A DNA stretch of 43,299 nucleotides, taken from positions 1 to 43,299 of the forward strand of contig JBDKVB010000072.1 of assembly GCA_039679385.1 (NCBI GenBank), written 5' to 3'. Under the pieces are notes generated by a model that was given only the letters and a program-made list of their open reading frames with translations, made no database searches and was not told the DNA's origin. How positions within the stretch are numbered: the first letter of the stretch is position 1; each line of letters starts with the position of its first letter. The stretch is from Armatimonadia bacterium. Its GTDB lineage: Bacteria > Armatimonadota > Zipacnadia > Zipacnadales > JABUFB01. Made by a program: the position numbers and the translations under genes. Shown here one piece after another: positions 15,599 through 32,305 of this stretch.

Positions 15599-18500
15599 AT
15601 GTCCCCTGCGGCACTCAGAGCGTGGGCTCTCCCGATGTTGGTGGTCGTGGCTGTGGGCGGTGTCCTGGTTCCCGCCATGGCCGGCGAGGTCAAGCTCTAC
15701 GTTGCCCGGGGCGGCAACGACCAGGCGACCGGAAAGCTACCCGATCCCCAGGGCATCAACGGCCCCTTCGCAACCCTCCAGCGCGCCCAGCAAGAGGTGC
15801 GGCGACTCCGGGCCGGCTCACCGCAGGACGCGGTGATTGTCTTCGTCCGTGGCGGCACTTACGAGCTTCCCGCGGCTCTGCAGTTCGGGCCGGAGGACTC
15901 CGGCACCTCGACCGCTCCCGTCACCTACCGCGCCTATCCGGGCGAGAAGCCGCTTCTGGTCGGTGCACGCAAGATCACGGGCTTCCATCCCTACAAGGGC
16001 CAGATCCTCCAGGCCAGCCTGCAGAACACGCCGCTGGCCAAGACGGTCTTCCGGCAACTGTTCTTCCGTGGCGAGCGCATGGTCATGGCCCGTTGCCCGA
16101 ACGTAGACCCCTCGGACCCTCACGGCGGGAAGTGGGAGCATGTGGCTGCCGTTGACGGTGACCAGGTGCAAGACCACTTCACCGCCATGCCGGGCGTGGT
16201 CAAGGACTGGACGAAGGTGAGCTACGCCGAGGTCGGCATCTTCCCCCAGCATGACTGGGCCTGGAACATACTTCGAGTCAAGTCGGCCGACAAGGCAGAG
16301 GGCACCGTCACGCTCGCCGGCAAGACCTCCTACGATATGCGCGTGGGCGACCGCTACTTCGTCCAGAACCTGCTCGAGGAGCTCGATGCACCCGGCGAGT
16401 GGTACCTGGACCGCGACACGTCCACGCTCTACTTCTGGCCACCGGCGGACGTGAACACCGGCGAGGTTCTCGCGGCCGTCATGGATAGCGTGGTAGTCAT
16501 CAAGGGTGCCCGCTATGTGAATCTGCGCGGGTTCACTGTGGAGGCCTGCGACGGCGACGCGGTGGTGCTCGATGGGTGCGAGAGGTGCGAGGTTGCCCAG
16601 TGCACGGTTCGGAACTGCGGCGCCTGGGGAGTGCGCATCAACGGCGGGACCAACTCCGGTGCCTTCGGGAACGACGTCTACGCCACAGGCTCGGGCGGCA
16701 TCTCGCTCAGCGGCGGCGACCGCAAGACCCTCCAGCGTGGCGACAACTACGCGACGAACAACTACGTACACCATGTGGCCGCCTTCAACCGGACCTACAA
16801 CACCGCCATCAATTGCAGCGGCGTGGGCAACCGGGCCGACCACAACCTCATCCACGATACGCCCCACGCAGGGATGACCCTGAGCGGGAACGACAACCTC
16901 GTCGAGTACAACCTCGTGCACCACACGAACCTGCAGTCGGCAGACACGGGCGGCATCTACTTTTGCTCCCGCGACTGGACCCAGCGCAACAACACCATCC
17001 GCTACAACATCTTCCACCACTGCGGCGGGTACGGGAAGATCAACTCCTGGTCGCCGGTCTCGAAGGGCAAGATCGGCTTCCACTACCCGGGCTTCACCTG
17101 GGGCATCTACCTGGACGACCCGACAACCGGCACGCTGGTGTACGGCAACATCCTCTGGAGCGTGCCCATCTGCGCCCTGCACAACCACGGGGGACGCGAC
17201 AACACCTGGGAGAACAACATCCTCGTCGACTGCCCGGCAATCAACGAGGGGATGCTCGCCCCGAACTGGGGAGAGTGGCCCAGCATTTACCAAAAGCTGC
17301 GGGACAACCGGCAGCCCGGCTCGCCCTACCTGGAGCGCTACCCGGAACTGGCGGACTACAAGGACACTCGTCCCGAGGAGATGAGCGGCGTCCGCTTCCT
17401 GCGCAACATCGTCTACTACACGGAAGAGGGTACCCGTTGGCTCCGCGAGGAGAACCAGAGTGGCTGGCAGGGCGGGCAACTGCTCTACCAGTTGCGCATG
17501 ACGAAGGAAGACTTCGCCAAGAACGAGTGGGACTACAACCTGGTCTATGCGCCGCCGGGGATGGAGGTCAAGGTCCGGCTGGATCGTCAGCCGGACATCA
17601 ACGAGCTCATGGGCTGGGAGAAGTGGCGCAGCCTCGGCGTTGATCAGCACTCGGTGCTGGCAGACCCGCTCTTCGTGGATGCGGCGAATCACGACTACCG
17701 TCTGAAGCCCGAGTCGCCGGCGCTCAAGCTCGGGTTCCAGCAGATCCCGACGGACCGCATCGGGTGCTTCGCCGATGACCGCCGGGCAAGCTGGCCGATT
17801 GTCGAGGCTCCCGGCGCCAGTGCCCGGGGCGAGTTCACGACACTCGAGTACGTGGACCTTCCGGGCTACGGTCGCACTCCGGCGCGGGAGGTCAATCCAC
17901 GCAAGGGTCTGGGGACGCTCGCGGCCAAGCTGGCAGCCAAGCAGCCGATCAAGGTCGCCTACTTCGGCGGCGGGATTCACCCCTCTTCGGGCTGGCGTGC
18001 GGAGCTGCTGAAGACCCTTCGCGCTCACTACCCGGGTGTTGAGGTCAGCGAGATCGACGCCGGGATCTGCGATTGCGTCCGTGGTTCGAGCTTCAGCACC
18101 TTCCGATTCCGCCATGACGTGCTCGACAAGAAGCCGGACCTGGTGCTGGTAGACTTCGCCTCGGACGACCGAGACATCGCCGACCAGCGGTCCATCTGGC
18201 TGTCGATGGAGGGCATCGTGCGCCAGGCCTGGAGCACCGACCCGAAGGTGGAGTTCCTGTTCCTGTACGCCTTCCGCGACGGCTACCAGGCAGACTACCG
18301 AGAGGGCATGTCGCCGGTGGTAGTCTCGGCCTACGAACGCGTGTCGGAGCACTACGGCATTCCCTCGATTAACCTGGGGGTGCGCGTGGAGAAGCTGGAG
18401 CGCGAGGGAAAGCTGGTGGTCAAGGCGACGGCCGAGGAAGCGGCCAAGCTGACCGGCAAGATTGTGTTTTCGGCGGATGGTACCCGCCCCTCGGCGGCCG

Positions 18501-19096
18501 CCAACCAACTCTACGCCCAGACAATCGCCGAGGGACTGGCGCAGATCGCCGCTGCTTCGACAGCGCCGACCGAAGCACTCCACGTGGCTGCGCTCGCCAA
18601 GCGTCCCATCAACGCCAACAACATGGAACGCGCCCGGCAAGTGCCGATCACTGCCGACATGCTGACCGGACAGTGGCAGAAGTTGTCGCCGCTGGATCCG
18701 CTCAGCCGCCAGTTTGCGCGGCACTTCGACAGCATCTGGTACACCAACACGCCGGGCGCCAAGTTGACCTTCCGCTTCAAGGGGACGGAGGCCGGTTTCT
18801 TCAACCTCATGGGTCCCGACACCGGCATCGCTCGGATGACCGTGGACGGGACCGTCGTCGGCACCCGGCAGCAGGTCGATCCCTGGTCGTACTACCAGCG
18901 GCTGTCGGGGCTGTCCATCGCCGGCGGGCTGCCCGACACAGAGCATACTGTGGTGGTGGAGCTGCTTCCCGACGTGCCGAATCGGGCGGTGCCGATCGCC
19001 GAGTCCAAGAAGGCCGGACGCTATCGGGCAGAGGACTTCGAGGGTGTGGCGCTGCGCTTCGGGTTCCTCCGGATCGTCGGGGAGATGCTTCCGTGA
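15599..19096 (+). CDS. Secreted right-handed beta-helix protein fused to a degenerate SGNH domain
   Basis: An 1165-residue exported protein; GGGAGG lies nine bases before ATG 15599 and residues 1-29 are a signal peptide. Residues about 30-740 begin LYVARGGNDQATG and FATLQRAQQEVR, the entry to pectate-lyase-like parallel beta-helices, and contain repeated coils (HNLIHDTPHAGMTLSGNDNL, VEYNLVHHTN) ending in ADPLFVDAANHDYRLKPESPA, the standard beta-helix tail. About 785-975 looks like an SGNH/GDSL hydrolase (KVAYFGGG..., KKPDLVLVDFASDD, ADGTRPSAAANQLYA), but the usual Ser, Asn and His positions read Gly792, Asp856 and Arg963. The last 190 residues form a beta-rich, possibly carbohydrate-binding module (LTFRFKGTEAGFFNLMGP). 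It probably binds or cleaves polysaccharide outside the cell; activity is unproved. Confidence 0.8.
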   Translation: MSPAALRAWALPMLVVVAVGGVLVPAMAGEVKLYVARGGNDQATGKLPDPQGINGPFATLQRAQQEVRRLRAGSPQDAVIVFVRGGTYELPAALQFGPEDSGTSTAPVTYRAYPGEKPLLVGARKITGFHPYKGQILQASLQNTPLAKTVFRQLFFRGERMVMARCPNVDPSDPHGGKWEHVAAVDGDQVQDHFTAMPGVVKDWTKVSYAEVGIFPQHDWAWNILRVKSADKAEGTVTLAGKTSYDMRVGDRYFVQNLLEELDAPGEWYLDRDTSTLYFWPPADVNTGEVLAAVMDSVVVIKGARYVNLRGFTVEACDGDAVVLDGCERCEVAQCTVRNCGAWGVRINGGTNSGAFGNDVYATGSGGISLSGGDRKTLQRGDNYATNNYVHHVAAFNRTYNTAINCSGVGNRADHNLIHDTPHAGMTLSGNDNLVEYNLVHHTNLQSADTGGIYFCSRDWTQRNNTIRYNIFHHCGGYGKINSWSPVSKGKIGFHYPGFTWGIYLDDPTTGTLVYGNILWSVPICALHNHGGRDNTWENNILVDCPAINEGMLAPNWGEWPSIYQKLRDNRQPGSPYLERYPELADYKDTRPEEMSGVRFLRNIVYYTEEGTRWLREENQSGWQGGQLLYQLRMTKEDFAKNEWDYNLVYAPPGMEVKVRLDRQPDINELMGWEKWRSLGVDQHSVLADPLFVDAANHDYRLKPESPALKLGFQQIPTDRIGCFADDRRASWPIVEAPGASARGEFTTLEYVDLPGYGRTPAREVNPRKGLGTLAAKLAAKQPIKVAYFGGGIHPSSGWRAELLKTLRAHYPGVEVSEIDAGICDCVRGSSFSTFRFRHDVLDKKPDLVLVDFASDDRDIADQRSIWLSMEGIVRQAWSTDPKVEFLFLYAFRDGYQADYREGMSPVVVSAYERVSEHYGIPSINLGVRVEKLEREGKLVVKATAEEAAKLTGKIVFSADGTRPSAAANQLYAQTIAEGLAQIAAASTAPTEALHVAALAKRPINANNMERARQVPITADMLTGQWQKLSPLDPLSRQFARHFDSIWYTNTPGAKLTFRFKGTEAGFFNLMGPDTGIARMTVDGTVVGTRQQVDPWSYYQRLSGLSIAGGLPDTEHTVVVELLPDVPNRAVPIAESKKAGRYRAEDFEGVALRFGFLRIVGEMLP

Positions 19097-22706: not shown

Positions 22707-25190
22707 TCATTTTACCACGATGTTGACCAGTTTATCCGGCACAGTGATGATCTTGACGACCTGCTTGCCGGCGAGGTGCTTGGCCACGACCGGCAGCTCC
22801 AGCGCCTGGCTCTTGACCGACTCCATGTCGCTACCGGCCGGCACCTGGAGGCGGTCGCGAACCTTGCCGTTCACCTGGACAACCACACTGACGCTCTCCT
22901 CGGCGGCCAGGGCGGGATCAGCCTGCGGCCAGCTGGCCTGCAGGACGCTGGGCTTGTGGCCGGTCCGCTTCCAGAGCTCTTCGCACAGATGCGGCGCCGT
23001 CACGGACAGCAGCAGGATCAGGGCCTCGACGGCCTCACTGTAGACGGCCTTCTTGCCGGGACACTCGCCGACGGTCGCCATGTAGGGCAGGACGTCGTTG
23101 GTGAGCTCCATCAGCGCGGCGATCATGGTGTTCAGGCCCATGTTGGCGATGTCTTCGGTGACGCGGCGGATCGTCTGGTGGGTCTTGCGCCGCATCGCCC
23201 GGTCCTGTTCCTCCGGTGAGGCGGGCAGGTTGTCCCTCCAGGCCGGGGCGAAGCCTGGGCCCTCGAGGGCCGCACGCCAGACACGCTGCAGGAAGCGGTG
23301 CGCACCCTCCACGCCCTTGTCACTCCACTCGGCATCCTGCTCCGGCGGTCCGACAAAGAGGATGAAGGTTCGCGCCGTATCCGCCCCGTACTGCTCGACC
23401 ATGTCGTCGATGCCCACCACGTTGCCCTTGGACTTGCTCATCTTCGAGCCGTCCTTGTAGATCATCCCCTGGGTGAACAGGCGGGAGAAGGGCTCGTCGA
23501 ACTTCAGGAATCCGCGGTCCTTGAGGACCTTGGTGATGAATCGGCTGTACAGCAGATGGCGCACTGCGTGCTCCACGCCGCCGACGTACTGATCGACGGG
23601 CATCCAGTAATCGACGTCTTCGCGGTGGAACACCTCGTCATCGGCCTTCGGGCTGCAGTAGCGCAGGTAGTACCACGAGGAGTCCACGTAGGTGGTCATC
23701 GTGTCGGTCTCGCGCTCTGCCGGCTTGCCGCACTTGGGGCAAGTCGTGTGCTTGAAGGTCGGATGGCGCTTGAGCGGGGAATCGCCGGTGGGCTGGAAGT
23801 CGGCCTCCGGAGGCAGCAGGACCGGCAGGTCCTCCTCGGGCACCGGCACCGGTCCGCAGTCCTCGCACCACACGATTGGGATCGGAGCTCCCCAGTAGCG
23901 CTGGCGGGAGATGAGCCAGTCACGCAGCCGGTAGTTCACCGTGCGCTTGCCGACTCCGAGCTTCTCCAGGTGATCGGCCAGGGCGCTCTTGGCGTCCTCG
24001 GAGCTCATGCCGTCGAAGGACCCACTGTTGACCTGGACACCGGCGGTCGTGTAGGCCTCGGTCATGGTCTGTGGGTCGAGGGTCTCGCCCTCGGGCTGGA
24101 TGACGACCTTCACGGGTAGGTTGAACCGGTGGGCGAACTCCAGGTCGCGCTGGTCATGCGCCGGAACGGCCATGATCGCACCGGTACCGTAGCCCATGAG
24201 CACGTAGTTGCCGACCCAGATCGGCACGCGCTCGCCGGTCAGCGGATGGATCGCATAGGCGCCGGTGAAGACGCCACGTTTCTCCGTCTCAGCCGCCGAG
24301 CGAGCAATCTCACCCTCACGCAGGGCGCTGGTGACGAACTCGCGAACGGGCTTCTCGTACTCGGTCCCGGCGGTCAGTTGCTTGACCAGCGGATGCTCGG
24401 GCGCCAGCACCATGTAGGTGACGCCGTAGAGGGTGTCGATGCGAGTGGTGAAGACCTCGACCTCGTCGTCGCGGTTCTCGAGCTTCAGGCGGAAGGACAC
24501 GCCCTCCGAGCGGCCGATCCAGTTAGCCTGCATAGTCCGCACGCGCTCGGGCCAGTTGTCGAGTAGCGAGAGGTCGTCGAGCAGCCGGTCGGCATAGTCG
24601 GTGATGCGGAAGAACCACTGATTCCCGGTGGGCCGGGGCTCCACGAGGCTGCCGCAGCGCTCGCAGGCGTCGCCGTCGAGTTCTTCGTTGGCCAGCACGG
24701 TCTGGCAGGAAGGGCACCAGTTGACGGTTGCGGTGCCGGTGTAGGCTAGTCCGGCCTTGTACAGCTCCAGGAACAGCCACTGGGTCCACTTGTAGTAGTC
24801 GGGCGCAGAGCAATCGACCTCGCGCTCCCAGTTATAGGTGATGCCGAGGCGGGAGAACTGCACGCGCATCTTGTCGGTGCACTGCTTGGTCCAGGCCACC
24901 GGGTGGATCTGGCGGGTGATGGCGGCGTTCTCGGCGGGCAGTCCGAAGGCATCCCAACCCATGGGGTGCATGACGGCGTAGCCCTGCATCATGTGGAAGC
25001 GGGCGAGGATGTCGCCGATGATGTAGTTGCGCATGTGGCCCATGTGCAGGTCGCCGGAAGGGTAGGGGTACATGTTGAGGCAGTAGTACTTGGGCTTGTC
25101 GGCATCGCGCTCGATGTTGAAGAGGCGATGCTCGGTCCAGTACGTCTGCCAGGCGGGTTCGATGGTGTTGAAGTCGTAACGGTCAGCCAC
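22707..25190 (-). CDS. leuS: Leucyl-tRNA synthetase
   Basis: An 827-residue class Ia synthetase that charges tRNA-Leu. The HIGH motif is HMGH at 49-52 (DLHMGHMRNYIIGD) and the KMSKS motif is KMSKSKG near residue 582. A zinc-binding region reads NWCPSCQTVLANEEL ... CERCG and a second Cys pair is in HTTCPKCGKPAERE. The CP1 editing domain is present (VEVFTTRIDTLYGVTYMVLA, the TTRPDTL-type threonine-rich editing motif with TRIDTL, and YGTGAIMAVPAHDQRD). The C-terminal domain ends VVQVNGKVRDRLQVPA ... KIITVPDKLVNIVV. GTG 25190 is chosen because AAGGAG lies seven bases upstream; an upstream extension of ten residues has no support. Length is normal for the bacterial enzyme. It heads the leuS-lipoprotein-comEA-comEC series. 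Confidence 0.97.
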   Translation of the reverse strand: MADRYDFNTIEPAWQTYWTEHRLFNIERDADKPKYYCLNMYPYPSGDLHMGHMRNYIIGDILARFHMMQGYAVMHPMGWDAFGLPAENAAITRQIHPVAWTKQCTDKMRVQFSRLGITYNWEREVDCSAPDYYKWTQWLFLELYKAGLAYTGTATVNWCPSCQTVLANEELDGDACERCGSLVEPRPTGNQWFFRITDYADRLLDDLSLLDNWPERVRTMQANWIGRSEGVSFRLKLENRDDEVEVFTTRIDTLYGVTYMVLAPEHPLVKQLTAGTEYEKPVREFVTSALREGEIARSAAETEKRGVFTGAYAIHPLTGERVPIWVGNYVLMGYGTGAIMAVPAHDQRDLEFAHRFNLPVKVVIQPEGETLDPQTMTEAYTTAGVQVNSGSFDGMSSEDAKSALADHLEKLGVGKRTVNYRLRDWLISRQRYWGAPIPIVWCEDCGPVPVPEEDLPVLLPPEADFQPTGDSPLKRHPTFKHTTCPKCGKPAERETDTMTTYVDSSWYYLRYCSPKADDEVFHREDVDYWMPVDQYVGGVEHAVRHLLYSRFITKVLKDRGFLKFDEPFSRLFTQGMIYKDGSKMSKSKGNVVGIDDMVEQYGADTARTFILFVGPPEQDAEWSDKGVEGAHRFLQRVWRAALEGPGFAPAWRDNLPASPEEQDRAMRRKTHQTIRRVTEDIANMGLNTMIAALMELTNDVLPYMATVGECPGKKAVYSEAVEALILLLSVTAPHLCEELWKRTGHKPSVLQASWPQADPALAAEESVSVVVQVNGKVRDRLQVPAGSDMESVKSQALELPVVAKHLAGKQVVKIITVPDKLVNIVVK

Positions 25191-25326
25191 GGTGGGACTC
25201 CTTCTGATCCAGCCACTCAAGGGGTGTGCCGGGCACCAAGGCGTGTAAAGGGCAACACGGGTGCACGAGAGTTAGTCAGGAAGAACTGCGACAGCGGATC
25301 TGCCAGGCAGCAGACCAGCGCGAAGA

Positions 25327-25392: not shown

Positions 25393-26277
25393 CTACAAGC
25401 GCAAGGCCACGGCCACGACCGCGAAGAGCACCCCCAGGATAACCAGCGCAATCAGAAGGTCACGTCGCTCCTGGGCGGTCAGGTGGAACTCGTGGAGGTT
25501 GACGGCCAGGAATCCGGCGGACATGTAGGGCAGCAAGGGCATGCCTGCGAGCCCAAAGGGATTGCCCAGCGCAATGGCGATGCCGACGCACGCACCAACC
25601 AGCATCGCCCAGAAGGTCGGAACGACCCTCAGGCCAAACCGGACGGCGAGGCACATGAACAGGGAAAGGAAGATGAAGTCGCCCAAGCCGATGGTTGCGA
25701 CGTGAGCAAGGCCCCTGGCACCCGCCGGACCGGCTGCGGAACCTGCCTGCGGAATCGCGAGGGAGAGCTTGGCCACCAGCTTCGGAGCCTTCTCAAGGGC
25801 CTGGCCGGTCGGTCCCCAGAAGACGGTGAAGATGTCGGCCACGGCTGCGACGATGGCCACCGGAAGGGCCATCGCCCGCTCGCGGACAATGTGTGCGAGG
25901 ACCTTGCCGACGAAGAGGCAACTGAGCAGGAAGAGGACGTTGGAGGCCGGCCCCAGGTAGAGACGGAGCATCTCGTGGGAACCTGATAGCTTGTCGAGGA
26001 GTACCCACGCAATGAGGAAGGCGGCTGATAGCAGCATCTCCTCATAGGGCTGGGTGCGCCACAGGGTTCCTGCACCCACCAGCGCCATCGACAGGCAGGC
26101 GAAGAGCAGGCTGCCTCCGAAGGTGGCCACCCAGTCGGGGATGCCGCTGGTGAGCGGCACGGCGACGAGGAAACCGTAGCAGACGACGCCGATGGCTAGC
26201 AGGGCGTAGGGCGCTGGGAGACTGAAGAGTTTGGGCTCTTGGGTGTCCAAGGCCTTAGAGCCTTCCGGGCTGGTCAT
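25393..26277 (-). CDS. Presenilin/SPP-like intramembrane aspartyl protease candidate
   Basis: A 294-residue polytopic membrane protein with about nine hydrophobic helices. Asp148 lies in a helix reading AIVAAVADIFTVFWG, followed after 52 residues by Asp200 in the next helix within ATIGLGDFIFLSLF. The latter is an exact GLGD, the GxGD signature of presenilin/signal peptide peptidase (PF06550 and relatives). Two helices later comes GMPLLPYM (247-250 PLLP), in the position of the PALP motif. The pattern between the two Asp residues (LEKAPKLVAKLSLAIP) also resembles the 'V.LAe....lklP' stretch of archaeal presenilin homologues. These proteases cut transmembrane segments inside the membrane. The Tyr of the eukaryotic YD motif is Ala here, and the last helix is extra. 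Start ATG 26277 is weakly supported: GGGGA upstream can pair with TCCCC beside the start. The motif match is by eye. Confidence 0.6.
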   Translation of the reverse strand: MTSPEGSKALDTQEPKLFSLPAPYALLAIGVVCYGFLVAVPLTSGIPDWVATFGGSLLFACLSMALVGAGTLWRTQPYEEMLLSAAFLIAWVLLDKLSGSHEMLRLYLGPASNVLFLLSCLFVGKVLAHIVRERAMALPVAIVAAVADIFTVFWGPTGQALEKAPKLVAKLSLAIPQAGSAAGPAGARGLAHVATIGLGDFIFLSLFMCLAVRFGLRVVPTFWAMLVGACVGIAIALGNPFGLAGMPLLPYMSAGFLAVNLHEFHLTAQERRDLLIALVILGVLFAVVAVALRL

Positions 26278-26379: not shown

Positions 26380-26763
26380 CTAGCGGGTATCCTGCCAGCC
26401 GACGAAGGTACCACCTTCGATGCGGTGCTTTGTCACGCGCCTGTGGGCATCAAACTGCATGACGAAGTGGACGAGGTTGGGGCAGGAGCGTCCGACGACT
26501 TCCTTGTGGAGGGTGTAGCCGATGGGATGCGGCATCTCCTCGCTGTCGGAGGCCTCGTCGGCATACTCGGCGAGCAGGTCATTGGCCTTGTCGACTCGGA
26601 CCGTGATGGTCTCGCCGCACTTGCTGCAGCGGACGCTCACGTTGAGAGCCGGCGCGGTGCCATTGCTGGTTGGGGCAGTTCCCAGCAGGATCTGGGCCAG
26701 GTACCCGAAGAGTTTACCTACTGGTACGGGCCCGCGTCTCGCCAGGACAAAGGCAGTCGCCAT
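26380..26763 (-). CDS. Conserved small Cys-x2-Cys protein of unknown function
   Basis: A 127-residue protein. Residues 42-60 read VSVRCSKCGETITVRVDKA, with Cys46 and Cys49 as a likely half of a zinc or iron site; then an acidic region (LLAEYADEASDSEEMPH), and GYTLHKEVVGRSCPNLVHFV followed by MQFDAHRRVTKHRIEGG. The layout ('C..CGE.i.vr.d...dl', then 'Gy...Ke..G..C', then 'FD..R.......GG.f') is one I associate with hypothetical proteins in Chloroflexi and Armatimonadota, but I know no function. The upstream part may contain a helix (VGKLFGYLAQILLG). The start is uncertain: ATG 26763 has only GGAG 14 bases before it, and the frame is open further up through a terminator-like hairpin. A promoter with TATAAT lies at 26897-26924. 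Confidence 0.6.
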   Translation of the reverse strand: MATAFVLARRGPVPVGKLFGYLAQILLGTAPTSNGTAPALNVSVRCSKCGETITVRVDKANDLLAEYADEASDSEEMPHPIGYTLHKEVVGRSCPNLVHFVMQFDAHRRVTKHRIEGGTFVGWQDTR

Positions 26764-26779
26764 CGGTCGACACTCTACT

Positions 26780-26827
26780 CCAAAAACAAAGACCCGGCTC
26801 CCCCCTACGATGCCCACCCAGCCGGGT
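26780..26827 (-). terminator. Terminator-like hairpin in the leader of the Cys-x2-Cys gene
   Basis: On the minus strand, ACCCGGCT and AGCCGGGT pair over 8 bases around a 20-base loop, followed by CTTTGTTTTT. It lies between the promoter at 26897-26924 and the start codon at 26763, so it could be an attenuator or the end of a short untranslated RNA of about 110 bases (see findings). Confidence 0.6.
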
Positions 26828-26896
26828 ACTGAAGACACTTCCGTAGCGCCGTCACGCCTGCCGTCAGGCATCCCTCGCCAACGGTTCCTCGGCAGC

Positions 26897-26924
26897 ATTA
26901 TAGTCTTCCGCACCCCAAAGTCAA
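26897..26924 (-). promoter_or_regulatory. Sigma70-type promoter upstream of the Cys-x2-Cys gene
   Basis: On the minus strand, -35 TTGACT (26924-26919), 16-base spacer, -10 TATAAT (26902-26897, perfect consensus). The predicted start is near 26890, leaving about 127 bases before ATG 26763. Confidence 0.7.
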
Positions 26925-26984
26925 TACGTCCAATCAAACATGCGTTCCCCAGCAGACCTCGTGAGGCACCGGGGTACCCGAGGG

Positions 26985-27836
26985 TCAGTCGCCGCGTTCT
27001 CTGGCGCAGCCTTCGAGCCTGGCGATCGTCTCGCGAATGGCCTCGTCAGGAGTGGAGGCGCCAGCAGTGACGCCGACTCTCTCGACGCCTTCGAGCCAGG
27101 CACAGTCGACCTCCTCGGCGGTCTCGATGTGGTGGGTTGGCTTGCCTGCGTCGGCGCAGATCTGTGCCAGTCGGGTGGTGTTCGCGCTATGGCGTCCGCC
27201 GATGACGACGACCATGTCGACACCCCGGGCCATCTGCAGGGCGGCCTCCTGGCGCTGGGTGGTGGCGTCGCAGATGGTGTTGGCGATGGCCAGATCGGAG
27301 ACCTTCGGGATGAGGTAGCGGACGAGTTCCTGCAGTGTCTCGACACGCTGCGTGGTCTGGCACACCACGGCGATGCGGCGCTTCAGCTCGCGGCCGACCA
27401 GGTCGTCGGCGCACTGGACGATATCCGCAGCCCCGCCGGTGTGCTCGCGGATTGCCTGCGCCTCGGGATGCTCGGGCTCACCGAGGACGAGGACCTGATA
27501 GCCGGCCTTGTGCAGACGAGCCGCCTCCCGCTGGGCACGGGCGACGAAGGGGCAAGTGGTGTCGATGACCTCCAGCCCACGCTCGCGGGCGCGGTCATAG
27601 ACTGTCGGTCCGACACCGTGGGTGCGGAGCATGACGGTTGCCCCCGGCGGAGCATCGTCGATGTCCTCGATGGGCTCGAGCCCCTGCTCCCGTAACTGGT
27701 CGACCGCTTGCCGGTTGTGGATCAGCGGTCCCTGAGAGTAGAGACGACCCCGCTGGGCTGTCTCGGCGACGGCCCGCTCGATGGCGCGTCTGACACCAAA
27801 GCAGAATCCTGCATGCTCGGCCAGGACGATCTCCAT
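26985..27836 (-). CDS. ispH: 4-hydroxy-3-methylbut-2-enyl diphosphate reductase (IspH/LytB)
   Basis: A 283-residue iron-sulfur enzyme, the last step of the MEP isoprenoid pathway, converting HMBPP to IPP and DMAPP. The three cluster ligands are Cys12 (HAGFCFGVRRAIE), a Cys in IDTTCPFVARAQ and a Cys in ANTICDATTQRQEAA. Other family marks are YSQGPLIHNRQAV, MLRTHGVGP, VVCQTTQRVETL, VVIGGRHSANTTRL and TAGASTPDEAI. ATG 27836 is preceded by AAGGAAG and starts exactly at the conserved N-terminus; a longer upstream frame crosses a repeat and is rejected. Length and motifs are complete, so it should be active. Confidence 0.95.
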   Translation of the reverse strand: MEIVLAEHAGFCFGVRRAIERAVAETAQRGRLYSQGPLIHNRQAVDQLREQGLEPIEDIDDAPPGATVMLRTHGVGPTVYDRARERGLEVIDTTCPFVARAQREAARLHKAGYQVLVLGEPEHPEAQAIREHTGGAADIVQCADDLVGRELKRRIAVVCQTTQRVETLQELVRYLIPKVSDLAIANTICDATTQRQEAALQMARGVDMVVVIGGRHSANTTRLAQICADAGKPTHHIETAEEVDCAWLEGVERVGVTAGASTPDEAIRETIARLEGCARERGD

Positions 27837-27876
27837 AGCGGTGGCTTCCTTTCGGTGGTAGCGGCAGCGCCTCTCA

Positions 27877-27982
27877 CGGCACCTCACCCCTGCCTGCGGC
27901 ATCTCCTCTCCACGCGGTGGAGAGGAGAAGGCAACGGCAACGAAAACGGCAACGACAAGGGCAACGACAAGGGCAACGACAC
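27877..27982 (+). repeat. Dispersed intergenic repeat, copy 1, with hairpin and AACGGC/AACGAC microsatellite
   Basis: Starts with CGGCACCTCACCCC then TGCCTGCGGCATC, followed by a perfect 12-base hairpin TCTCCTCTCCAC / GTGGAGAGGAGA with a GCG loop (27902-27928), then tandem units of the GGCAACGGCAACG / GGCAACGACAAG kind (27930-27982). A second copy of the leading 27 bases, with one mismatch, starts at 29611. The two copies are in the same orientation and flank the GH26-like gene. Similar CTCACCCC...GAGAGG elements are widely dispersed in environmental genomes. Confidence 0.6.
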
Positions 27983-28082
27983 CTCAGTCTCGAAGGACTG
28001 CTGGGCGCGGGCAGGACGCTCGCGGCCGACCCGGGTTCCGCCTCCTGCGCCCAAAGTGGGTAAGGCCAAGACGGGCGCGTCG

Positions 28083-28112
28083 TTGACGCTGCCGGTCAGC
28101 CATGACTATAAT
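28083..28112 (+). promoter_or_regulatory. Sigma70-type promoter, nearly leaderless, of the GH26-like gene
   Basis: -35 TTGACG (28083-28088), 18-base spacer, -10 TATAAT (28107-28112). The start codon at 28128 is only about nine bases after the predicted transcription start, leaving no room for a ribosome-binding site. Confidence 0.65.
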
Positions 28113-28127
28113 GCCTGCGATCCCATT

Positions 28128-29597
28128 ATGGCCAGTCTCCGATTCCTCTGCGCGAGTCTCCTACTGCTGACTCACTTCGCCGGGGCCCAGGCTCTTGCAC
28201 CCTATGAGCCCGCCAACGGCTGCTACCTTGGCGCCTACATAGAGAAGGACCCGAGGGCTGCCGACGATATCGCGGTCTTCGAGGCGCTGACCAATAAGAA
28301 GCATGCCTCGTACTTCCATTACGTGGGGTACGGCCAGCCCTTCCCCTTCGAGTGGGCCAACAAGCTGAAGGCCGTCGGGGCAATGCCGCACATCGCCTGG
28401 GAGCCGAATGATGGTCTGGGCGAGATTCGCGACGACGCCTACCTGCAAGGTTGGGCGCAGGCCTGTGCACACTACCAGGCACCGATCCTGCTGCGGTTTG
28501 CCTCGGAGATGAACGGCGACTGGGAAGCCTACTCCGGCGACCCCGACCTGTACATCCGCAAGTGGCGTCTGGTCTACAGCGTGATTCACTCCGTGGCGCC
28601 GAATGTGATCATGTGCTGGTGCCCCTTCGCGACGCCGAAGAGCACGATCCCGCTCTACTACCCGGGAGACGCCTACGTGGACTGGGTTGGGGTCAACGCC
28701 TACAGTGTGATGTACAACGAAGGCAACCTCAACAAGCGCGCGGTCGACAACGCGGTGCAGCACCTGGAGTTCATCTACAACCTGTACGCCGACCGCAAGC
28801 CGATTGCCGTCTGCGAGTACGCCGCGACGCACCACTGCGGCGCGCTCAACAAGCCCACGGTCGATTTCGCGGTGCGCGAGATGCGGAGGATGTACGAGAC
28901 CATTGAGACGCGCTTTCCGCGGGTGCGCATGATCAACTGGTTCTCGGTGGACACCCTCAGAGAGAACCTGGCGCACAACGACTATGCGCTCACCAATGAC
29001 GAGGAGGTGCTGGCCGCCTACCGGCAGGTCATTGCCTCGCCGCACTTCCTCAGTCGCGTCGAAGCTACGCAGGCCGTCGTTGCGGGAGCCGGAGGTCTGG
29101 CACTGCCTGGAACGGCCGGAGCACCCGGCGCCGCTCTCCTGACGCCGCTGGCCACTCCGGGAGCCGCTCCGACTGGGACCTTGCCGGCGCCCAGTGGTCC
29201 GCTGACACCAGTGGGGCCGCTGACCCCGATAGGACCGGTTACGCCGGCGACCACTGCGGAACCGAGCGTCCACACCTCAGTGCCACTGGCGCTGTCTGAG
29301 CTGGCCTCGCCGCCCGCCCGAGGTGTCGCGTTGGTGGTCGAGGGCGCACCACCTGCGGCCCTGGCAGGTCGCGTCAACATCGAGGCGGTCCTGGGCAGCG
29401 GTCTCCAGCCGGACCGCGTCAGTCTGATGCTCGACGGCCAGGTTCGCTCGGCCTCCAACGCTCCGCCCTACTTCTTCCCCTGGAACACCGAACGGGCAAC
29501 GGTCGGCGAGCACCGCGTGCGTGTCATCGTTCGGAGCGAACTGGGCGAAGTCCTCGCCGAGGCGGAGGCGGCAGTCGTGGTCGCACCGCGTCCGTGA
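28128..29597 (+). CDS. Secreted GH26-like glycosidase with C-terminal Ig-like domain
   Basis: A 489-residue exported protein. ATG 28128 opens a signal peptide (LRFLCASLLLLTHFAGAQA). The barrel (about 25-310) starts GCYLGAYIEKDP and has LLRFASEMNGDW with Glu127 in the place of the GH26 acid/base ('R.fhEmNG.W') and IAVCEYAATHH with Glu230 as probable nucleophile; DWVGVNAYSVMY fits strand 6. A Pro/Gly/Thr linker (about 330-385, repeats such as LTPVGPLTPIGPVTP) leads to a beta-sandwich ending (RVSLMLDGQVRSASNAPPYF) of the bacterial Ig type. GH26 enzymes are mostly beta-mannanases and lichenases; the substrate here is unknown. The long open frame upstream (from 27708) runs through the repeat and is not coding. 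The near-leaderless promoter is described separately. Confidence 0.8.
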   Translation: MASLRFLCASLLLLTHFAGAQALAPYEPANGCYLGAYIEKDPRAADDIAVFEALTNKKHASYFHYVGYGQPFPFEWANKLKAVGAMPHIAWEPNDGLGEIRDDAYLQGWAQACAHYQAPILLRFASEMNGDWEAYSGDPDLYIRKWRLVYSVIHSVAPNVIMCWCPFATPKSTIPLYYPGDAYVDWVGVNAYSVMYNEGNLNKRAVDNAVQHLEFIYNLYADRKPIAVCEYAATHHCGALNKPTVDFAVREMRRMYETIETRFPRVRMINWFSVDTLRENLAHNDYALTNDEEVLAAYRQVIASPHFLSRVEATQAVVAGAGGLALPGTAGAPGAALLTPLATPGAAPTGTLPAPSGPLTPVGPLTPIGPVTPATTAEPSVHTSVPLALSELASPPARGVALVVEGAPPAALAGRVNIEAVLGSGLQPDRVSLMLDGQVRSASNAPPYFFPWNTERATVGEHRVRVIVRSELGEVLAEAEAAVVVAPRP

Positions 29598-30388: not shown

Positions 30389-32305
30389 ATGTTCCGCGTT
30401 GCCTTGCTGCTTTGGCTCACACTCCTGATGACCGGCCTGGCCCTGGCTCAGGACACTCCGACACAGGAAGCGGGAGTTGCGATGGTGCAGGTCACTCCGG
30501 CCCTGAGCGACGAGGTGCTGCTGAACCCTCGCATGGGGCTCTACCTCCAGTATCCTCCCCTTACGGCGAAGCCCGAGGACTGGTTCATGAGGATCGCGGG
30601 CGTCGCCTACTACCGGATGGACTGGTCTGCGCTGAACCCGGAGGAGGGTGTCTACAAGTTCGACGAGTTCTTCGGCCCGCGCTTCGACTTCTGGGTGGCG
30701 CAGAACCACAAGCGCGTCGCCTTTCGGGTTATGTGCCAGAGCATGCACTCCGCCGCTGACTACGTGACGCCCAAGTGGGTCTTCGACAAGGGTGTCCCGG
30801 GAGTGCAGCACACGGCCCTTCGTGGGCAGACGCAGACGGACCCGGTGTTCTGGGACGAGCGCTACCTGGAGGTCCAGTGCGAGTTCATCCGCAAGCTCGG
30901 GGAGTACCTGGATGGCCGGGAAGGGCTGGAGTTCGTCGACATCGGCAGCATCGGCGAGTGGGGCGAGATGCACCTCGCACGCTGGACGCCCCAGCAACTC
31001 GCTGAGACCGGCTTCAGCCATACCCGCTATGTCCAGGCCTACCGACGGATCATCGATGCCTATGTGAAGGCCTTCCCGCGCACCCAGGTATTCCTCAATG
31101 TCGGCGGGCAGGACAACCAGACCATCAACGACTACGCGGCGCTGCGGGGAGTGCACTTCCGGCAGGATGGGCTGAACCCCTCGGGCGCCAGCTATGATGT
31201 GGGCAACTGGCTGTACAAGCCCTACTCGCGGCGTGGTGTCGTGTGCAACTTCGAGTTCCACAGCGGCCTCGACGAGATGAAGGCCAAGGGCTGGGACCTG
31301 CAGGCGACGCTGGACAAGGCCCTCGAGGCCCCCCTCAGCTACCTGAACACCAACCTGGGGAACTACTATACTTTGCCCGAGGAGGCCCGACAGAAGCTCA
31401 CTGAGACGGCGCGGAAGATCGGCTACCGCTTCGTGATGACCCGGCTGGAGCACAATGCGCAGGTCCGGCTGGACGGCGAGCACGTCTCGCGGCTGCTGGT
31501 GAACAGCACCTGGCGCAACGACGGCGTGGCTCCCTGCTACGACAGCTATGCCCTGGAGTGGCGGCTTGAGGATGCGAAGGGCCAGGCGGTCGCCTCGGAG
31601 CTCACCTTTCCCAAGGTTCCGACGACCCAGTGGTGGCCCGGTGAGGAGGTCTCCAGTTCGGTCCTGCTGCGACTTCCGGGGACGACTCCTCCGGGCGAGT
31701 ACCAGCTCAAAGTCTCGATGGTGGATCCGGAGAGCGGTCGGCGGATTCTGCTCGGGATCGCCGGTCGCGACGAGGCAGACTGGTATGCTCTCGGTGTGGT
31801 GCCCGGTGTGAGCGCACCGGCGACTGCCGGCAAGGTGTATGAGGAAGGCTTCGAGGGCGAGGTCAAGCCTTGGGGAACCGCCGAGGGGATCTCGGCCGCC
31901 GTCGGCGATACGCAGGCACACTCGGGACAGCACGCGCTGCTGGTGACAGGCTCGTGCCAGAAGGCCTGGAACTACACGAGCTTCCGGGCACCGGTGGAAC
32001 TGCGGCCCGGCAGTCGCTACCGGCTGTCGGCGTGGCTACTGGTGGAGTCGATGGAGCCAACGAGGTATGCGCCGCACGTCAAGCTCGGCGTCAACAACAA
32101 GGACGGTAAGTGGCTGACCAACTTCAACTCCGACACCTATGACCTGAAGCAGATGGGAACCTGGCAGCGCGTGGAGGCCGATGTGGAGGTTCCCCTGGAG
32201 GGTGCAAGCGGGGACATCGCGATCGAGCGCGGCAACCAGGAGGCACCGATCACCACGCGACTGTGGCTGGATGACGTGACGCTGGAGCTGGAGGAGGGCC
32301 TGTAG
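30389..32305 (+). CDS. Secreted DUF4832-containing protein, glycosidase-like with C-terminal CBM
   Basis: A 638-residue exported protein. AGGGAGG lies eight bases before ATG 30389; residues 1-20 are a signal peptide. The barrel begins NPRMGLYLQYPP and continues YYRMDWSALNPEEGVYKF, the strand-and-helix form of GH42/GH-A clan N-termini; IGSIGEWGEMHLARW has a candidate acidic catalytic residue. DUF4832 follows (VVCNFEFHSGLDEMK, LSYLNTNLGNYYTLP, ending in a beta-sandwich with LVNSTWRNDGVAPCYDSY). About 490-638 is a jelly-roll carbohydrate-binding module (EGFEGEVKPWG ... HSGQHALLVTGSCQKAWNYT ... LWLDDVTLELEEG) of the CBM4/9 type. The activity is unproved; the domain order strongly suggests polysaccharide binding and hydrolysis. 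A strong terminator follows. Confidence 0.75.
   Translation: MFRVALLLWLTLLMTGLALAQDTPTQEAGVAMVQVTPALSDEVLLNPRMGLYLQYPPLTAKPEDWFMRIAGVAYYRMDWSALNPEEGVYKFDEFFGPRFDFWVAQNHKRVAFRVMCQSMHSAADYVTPKWVFDKGVPGVQHTALRGQTQTDPVFWDERYLEVQCEFIRKLGEYLDGREGLEFVDIGSIGEWGEMHLARWTPQQLAETGFSHTRYVQAYRRIIDAYVKAFPRTQVFLNVGGQDNQTINDYAALRGVHFRQDGLNPSGASYDVGNWLYKPYSRRGVVCNFEFHSGLDEMKAKGWDLQATLDKALEAPLSYLNTNLGNYYTLPEEARQKLTETARKIGYRFVMTRLEHNAQVRLDGEHVSRLLVNSTWRNDGVAPCYDSYALEWRLEDAKGQAVASELTFPKVPTTQWWPGEEVSSSVLLRLPGTTPPGEYQLKVSMVDPESGRRILLGIAGRDEADWYALGVVPGVSAPATAGKVYEEGFEGEVKPWGTAEGISAAVGDTQAHSGQHALLVTGSCQKAWNYTSFRAPVELRPGSRYRLSAWLLVESMEPTRYAPHVKLGVNNKDGKWLTNFNSDTYDLKQMGTWQRVEADVEVPLEGASGDIAIERGNQEAPITTRLWLDDVTLELEEGL

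Follow-up and report, generated by a model that had tools for sequence, protein, structure and literature searches.

A divergent presenilin/SPP-like intramembrane aspartyl protease predicted across the Armatimonadota

Introduction

Presenilin, the catalytic subunit of gamma-secretase, is an enzyme linked to Alzheimer's disease and known in eukaryotes and archaea, and the presenilin-type proteases that we found described in the literature have eukaryotic and archaeal members only, none of them bacterial. In substrate-bound presenilin-1, the catalytic loop contributes a short helix (TM6a) and two strands (beta1 and beta2) that join the substrate in a hybrid sheet (PMC7248309). Signal peptide peptidase (SPP) cuts type II segments, and its active site is oriented opposite to that of presenilin (PMC7366577; PMC2947513). 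The archaeal PSH proteins carry the YD motif and have a PPL sequence where an obvious PAL motif is missing (PMC2947513).

Here we describe a gene of the Armatimonadota that probably encodes a bacterial counterpart of this enzyme. Our literature searches found no report of presenilin or intramembrane proteases in Armatimonadota, though an earlier report of bacterial members may exist. The gene lies in a stretch of 43,299 nucleotides, referred to below as the window.

Results

The gene and its motifs

The open reading frame at 25393-26277 lies on the minus strand, a strand that the initial annotation had not given; it begins with ATG, has no internal stop and encodes 294 amino acids. The initial annotation had placed Asp148 in AVADIF, Asp200 in GLGD and PLLP two helices later in a 294-residue protein; the translated frame reproduces this numbering and has PLLP at residues 247-250. 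The features discussed below are as follows; counts refer to the family alignment.

25393-26277, minus strand: predicted presenilin/SPP-like intramembrane aspartyl protease gene (open reading frame, phylum-wide family and fold)
25834-25836, minus strand: codon of D148 (AVADIF), the predicted first catalytic Asp, in TM5; invariant in 101/101
25678-25689, minus strand: GLGD, residues 197-200, with the predicted second catalytic Asp, D200, in TM6; G197 and D200 in 101/101; aligned to presenilin GLGD
25687-25812, minus strand: inter-Asp loop, residues 156-197, containing short helices and a pair of beta strands (DSSP on the model; comparison with PMC7248309)
25528-25539, minus strand: the PAL-type motif PLLP, residues 247-250, at the head of TM8; P247 in 96/101 and L249 in 97/101; aligned to presenilin PALP
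25468-25500, minus strand: loop that follows the PAL helix, residues 260-270, conserved, positively charged and predicted cytoplasmic; N260 in 96/101 and E270 in 99/101
25399-25476, minus strand: extra C-terminal helix TM9, residues 268-293 (model helices), outside the region superposed on presenilin

A phylum-wide family

Taken singly, the 294-residue protein found no match in Pfam, NCBIfam or the PDB sequences, phmmer searches included. Single-protein searches therefore looked negative, and it was the family profile, once built, that gave matches. A protein search returned members in 52 of 61 related genomes. The A1 profile, built from 49 members, matched 269 of the 291 genomes scanned in the phylum, 186 of the 194 good-quality genomes and 152 of 156 genera. 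Almost all matched genomes carry a single copy; several of the genomes with no match are small or incomplete. One genome has two members in tandem (L134; G079:C1:5630200-5633200). A contig scan with an insensitive method returned a single record, itself from Armatimonadota (Ca. Hebobacteria), and no family match was found in plasmid sequences. The protease-like gene is a phylum-wide, mostly single-copy family of the Armatimonadota.

Conservation was counted over 101 aligned family sequences, many of them only 19-30% identical to the window protein. D148, G197 and D200 are invariant (101/101), and G155 is missing from a single sequence (100/101). They are followed by E270, F203 and G124 (99/101 each), L249 (97/101), P247, N260 and V152 (96/101 each), P139 (95/101) and P176 (94/101). 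The Pro and Leu of the PAL-type motif are thus about 95% conserved, and its middle residue is mostly Ala, Gly or Leu. Across the same sequences the two Asp residues are 41-61 residues apart, and the second Asp stands 43-54 residues before the PAL Pro. Judged from this alignment, the conservation of the motif residues is far beyond chance.

Two positions vary in a way that bears on the active site. The residue preceding D148 is Val, Ala, Ile, Phe, Met, Thr or Leu, and Tyr occurs there in none of the 101 members. The Ala that the initial annotation had remarked on in place of the YD tyrosine is real. At position 199, Gly is found in 81/101 sequences (GxGD) and Ala in 20/101 (GxAD). The GxAD members, which include L151, L146-L149, L140 and L137, keep both Asp residues, and many of them come from one large family of Armatimonadota. 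A Gly-to-Ala change at the equivalent site of human presenilin-1 (G384A) is a familial Alzheimer's mutation.

Sequence links to presenilin and SPP

When the A1 profile was run against 177,635 distinct PDB sequences, the one match up to an E-value of 10 was the C-terminal fragment of presenilin-1 (E 0.003), with GLGDFIF aligned on GLGDFIF and the PLLP column on PALP. The wider A2 profile matched presenilin-1 (E 0.0025) and presenilin-2 (E 0.0055) only in the same set, with GxGD and PALP in register; a profile limited to the most distant members matched no PDB sequence. Among the 49 members, the Pfam Presenilin model (PF01080) gave weak matches in 8 (best E 0.024) and Peptidase_A22B (PF04258) matched 3 (best 1.3e-5), and the curated cut-off of PF04258 was passed in 1 of 291 genomes. 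The window protein itself falls below the curated cut-offs of PF04258 and PF01080 and has no match to either. The archaeal SPP model, PF06550, is absent from the window's genome; in 14 control genomes it matched two archaea only, and PF04258 matched none. The profile search proposed with the initial annotation came out negative for PF06550 and positive both for single relatives, through PF04258 and weakly PF01080, and for the family profile, whose PDB matches are all presenilins. These sequence links are each weak singly and jointly specific.

Predicted fold and helix layout

An AlphaFold2 model of the window protein with its family, made with no structure template, has a mean pLDDT of 90.5 and a pTM of 0.88. 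In a VIA-align search, 24 presenilin, SPPL2a and PSH entries came out on top with Z from 15.6 to 9.9, the next unrelated chain scoring 4.9; such Z values are possible for helical bundles, and what counts here is how far the unrelated rows fall behind and how homogeneous the top rows are. These 24 superpositions cover 147-191 residues at 2.8-5.1 A. A second AlphaFold2 model, likewise template-free, of the distant member L151, which has GPAD in place of GLGD, reached a pLDDT of 93.1 and a pTM of 0.90 and retrieved 20 presenilin-superfamily entries (Z 13.9 to 8.9; next unrelated 5.9). Three of the 30 row lineages in the second alignment, that of the window protein among them, are common to the first, so that the two predictions are not fully independent. 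In both models the superposition extends over roughly 150-195 residues, with the best rows at about 3 A, and takes in the PAL helix as well as the two Asp helices. Foldseek E-values were modest (best 1.0e-3 for the first model and 3.2e-2 for L151), and no significant match was found in a viral structure library.

The first model has the following elements in protein numbering, which is model numbering plus 18.

TM1 22-42, TM2 48-71, TM3 77-98, TM4 102-128
TM5 134-153 (with D148), short helices 156-170, strands 172-176 and 192-197
TM6 198-213 (with D200), TM7 218-238, TM8 249-263 (after PLLP), TM9 268-293

The nine helices and the extra terminal helix of the initial annotation are both borne out: the model has nine long helices, with two short ones following the helix of the first Asp, and TM9 comes after the PAL helix TM8. 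Its author had also looked to structure prediction for two Asp residues facing each other in adjacent helices; what the two models give is the presenilin/SPPL2a/PSH fold, and in that of the window protein D148 is on TM5 and D200 on the adjacent TM6. The PAL-type motif opens TM8, two helices past the GxGD helix. Model residues 30-248 superpose on presenilin-1 73-452 and, as model residue 248 is protein residue 266, TM1 and TM9 lie outside this range. In both models the first Asp is in the fifth helix and one helix follows the PAL helix, which differs from the presenilin-type layout, where the first Asp is in the sixth helix and the PAL motif opens the last of nine. The short helices and beta strands of the catalytic loop are present in both models, in the same places as TM6a and beta1/beta2 of substrate-bound presenilin-1.

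Membrane orientation

The loops TM2-3, TM4-5, TM6-7 and TM8-9 carry a mean of 2.46 Lys/Arg per loop, compared with 0.66 for the short loops of the opposite side, and all 101 sequences show this bias. The positive-inside rule predicts a first Asp helix that runs from the cytoplasm to the outside and a catalytic loop that lies outside. The active-site orientation predicted from these loop-charge counts is that of SPP and not that of presenilin.

Genomic neighbourhood

Two neighbours on the minus strand flank the gene.

22707-25220, minus strand: leuS, leucyl-tRNA synthetase (Pfam), the downstream neighbour; same order in 13/22 loci
26380-26937, minus strand: small open reading frame with CxxC-type Cys residues, just upstream; no Pfam match; in 8/22 loci

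The protease-like gene sits directly upstream of leuS on the same strand in 13 of 22 flanked loci, distant families included, and some of the remaining loci are cut by contig ends. The small Cys-containing frame, whose true start is probably further in, recurs in 8 of the 22 context loci, all within the same order. In the window, leuS, comEA and comEC follow downstream on the same strand, as the initial annotation had it, and the small frame and ispH (LytB) lie upstream. It had also seen no obvious substrate nearby, and neither leuS nor the small Cys frame names one. A general tie to competence genes was ruled out, since leuS is the conserved neighbour and comEA/comEC are present in some loci only. 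The window's genome and most relatives also have members of the SppA (PF01343) and site-2 protease (PF02163) families, and on this ground we rejected a simple replacement of either. Large frames with carbohydrate-related domains also lie near the protease gene, on the plus strand of the window (15599-19096, 27708-29597 and 30389-32305); their domains are beta helix/GH141 insertion, GH26, and DUF4832 with CBM_4_9.

Discussion

Our analysis points with good confidence to this Armatimonadota core gene encoding a divergent intramembrane aspartyl protease of the GxGD (presenilin/SPP) superfamily. Homology and fold are well supported by the family profiles and the structural models, and the protein is very likely an active intramembrane aspartyl protease, given sequence and model together. 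The initial annotation had proposed such a protease, and the invariant D148/D200 pair, the family profile and the fold of two models all argue for that reading. The best name, in our judgement, is a divergent bacterial branch of the presenilin/SPP superfamily, and not a presenilin, an SPP or a PSH, because the catalytic pair, GxGD, a PAL-type motif and the fold are shared but the YD motif is lacking, the helices are laid out differently and the protein scores below the Pfam cut-offs.

We consider it unlikely that the protein has the presenilin fold and yet is no protease, its two Asp residues serving binding, transport or scaffolding in the manner of a pseudoprotease. The case for proteolysis is built from sequence and model, and the YD Tyr that is never present, the GxAD variant and the differing helix layout would all suit such a role; both Asp residues, Gly197 and the PAL-type Pro and Leu are nevertheless kept across the phylum. 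Pseudoproteases usually lose catalytic residues. GxGD is also carried by the type IV prepilin peptidases (MEROPS A24) and, with comEA and comEC downstream in the window, an enzyme of that kind, processing pilins or competence pseudopilins, might come to mind. However, no Pfam A24 match was found in any of the 49 members scanned with all matches listed, nor in the family lists of 91 members, and this identity was rejected on that count. The fold match is moreover to presenilin/SPP, a PAL-type motif is present and the comEA/comEC adjacency is not general, all of which leaves a prepilin peptidase very improbable. Short motifs can arise by chance in hydrophobic helices, and the window protein has no Pfam match, so that GLGD, the upstream Asp and PLLP could be imagined as coincidences in an unrelated polytopic membrane protein. 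The residues that stay invariant in all 101 divergent sequences, together with a fold match that is specific and scores well clear of unrelated membrane proteins, already refute this unless both models are wrong, and we give it almost no credence.

For the protease that we favour, D148 and D200 would activate a water molecule and so cut the transmembrane helix of the substrate, which might extend the enzyme's own strand pair by a further beta strand and lie next to the PAL motif. Given the SPP orientation, substrates should be N-in (type II) segments, which could for instance be leftover signal peptides or membrane anchors. A fuller account, which we put forward tentatively and hold at somewhat less than even chances, is that of an ancient, phylum-wide core branch, vertically inherited, with a rearranged helix order (one helix fewer before the core and one gained after the PAL helix), a non-Tyr active site and the SPP orientation, acting on N-in segments such as signal-peptide remnants. 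If this account holds, the superfamily would have originated, or spread early, outside archaea and eukaryotes. A near-universal bacterial branch would give a route to asking where the superfamily arose, and would also offer a possibly single-subunit model, together with natural tests of which features are dispensable, among them the YD Tyr, the second Gly of GxGD and the order of the helices.

Comparison with known systems

Set against the MEROPS A22 superfamily as a whole, the Armatimonadota family has two Asp residues in adjacent transmembrane helices, GxGD, a PAL-type motif and the presenilin fold; it lacks the YD motif and arranges its helices differently, and the window protein stays below the Pfam cut-offs. 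With presenilin (PF01080) it shares GLGDFIF and a PAL-type motif in register, the pair of Asp residues in adjacent helices, a fold that superposes at about 3 A across as many as 191 residues, and a catalytic loop with TM6a-like helices and beta strands. In contrast to presenilin, the Armatimonadota protein is bacterial, has no Tyr before the first Asp, has a short inter-Asp loop, carries one transmembrane helix fewer before the core and one more after it, and is predicted to have its active site in the opposite orientation. The SPP/SPPL proteases (PF04258) have the same fold (SPPL2a 9k93, Z 13.4, 189 residues, 3.2 A), the same predicted orientation of the catalytic helices and a similarly short inter-Asp loop, and one relative of the window protein passes the PF04258 cut-off. 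The family differs from them in the YD Tyr that it lacks, in having PLLP, PALP or PALV and not QPALLY, in its other N- and C-terminal helices and in the position of the window protein below the Pfam cut-off. Archaeal PSH/MCMJR1 (PF06550; 4hyg, 4y6k) is likewise prokaryotic, has GxGD and matches the fold with Z of about 11.8-11.9 at 4.0-4.1 A; unlike PSH, the Armatimonadota protein has no PF06550 match, and its fold match to PSH is weaker than that to presenilin.
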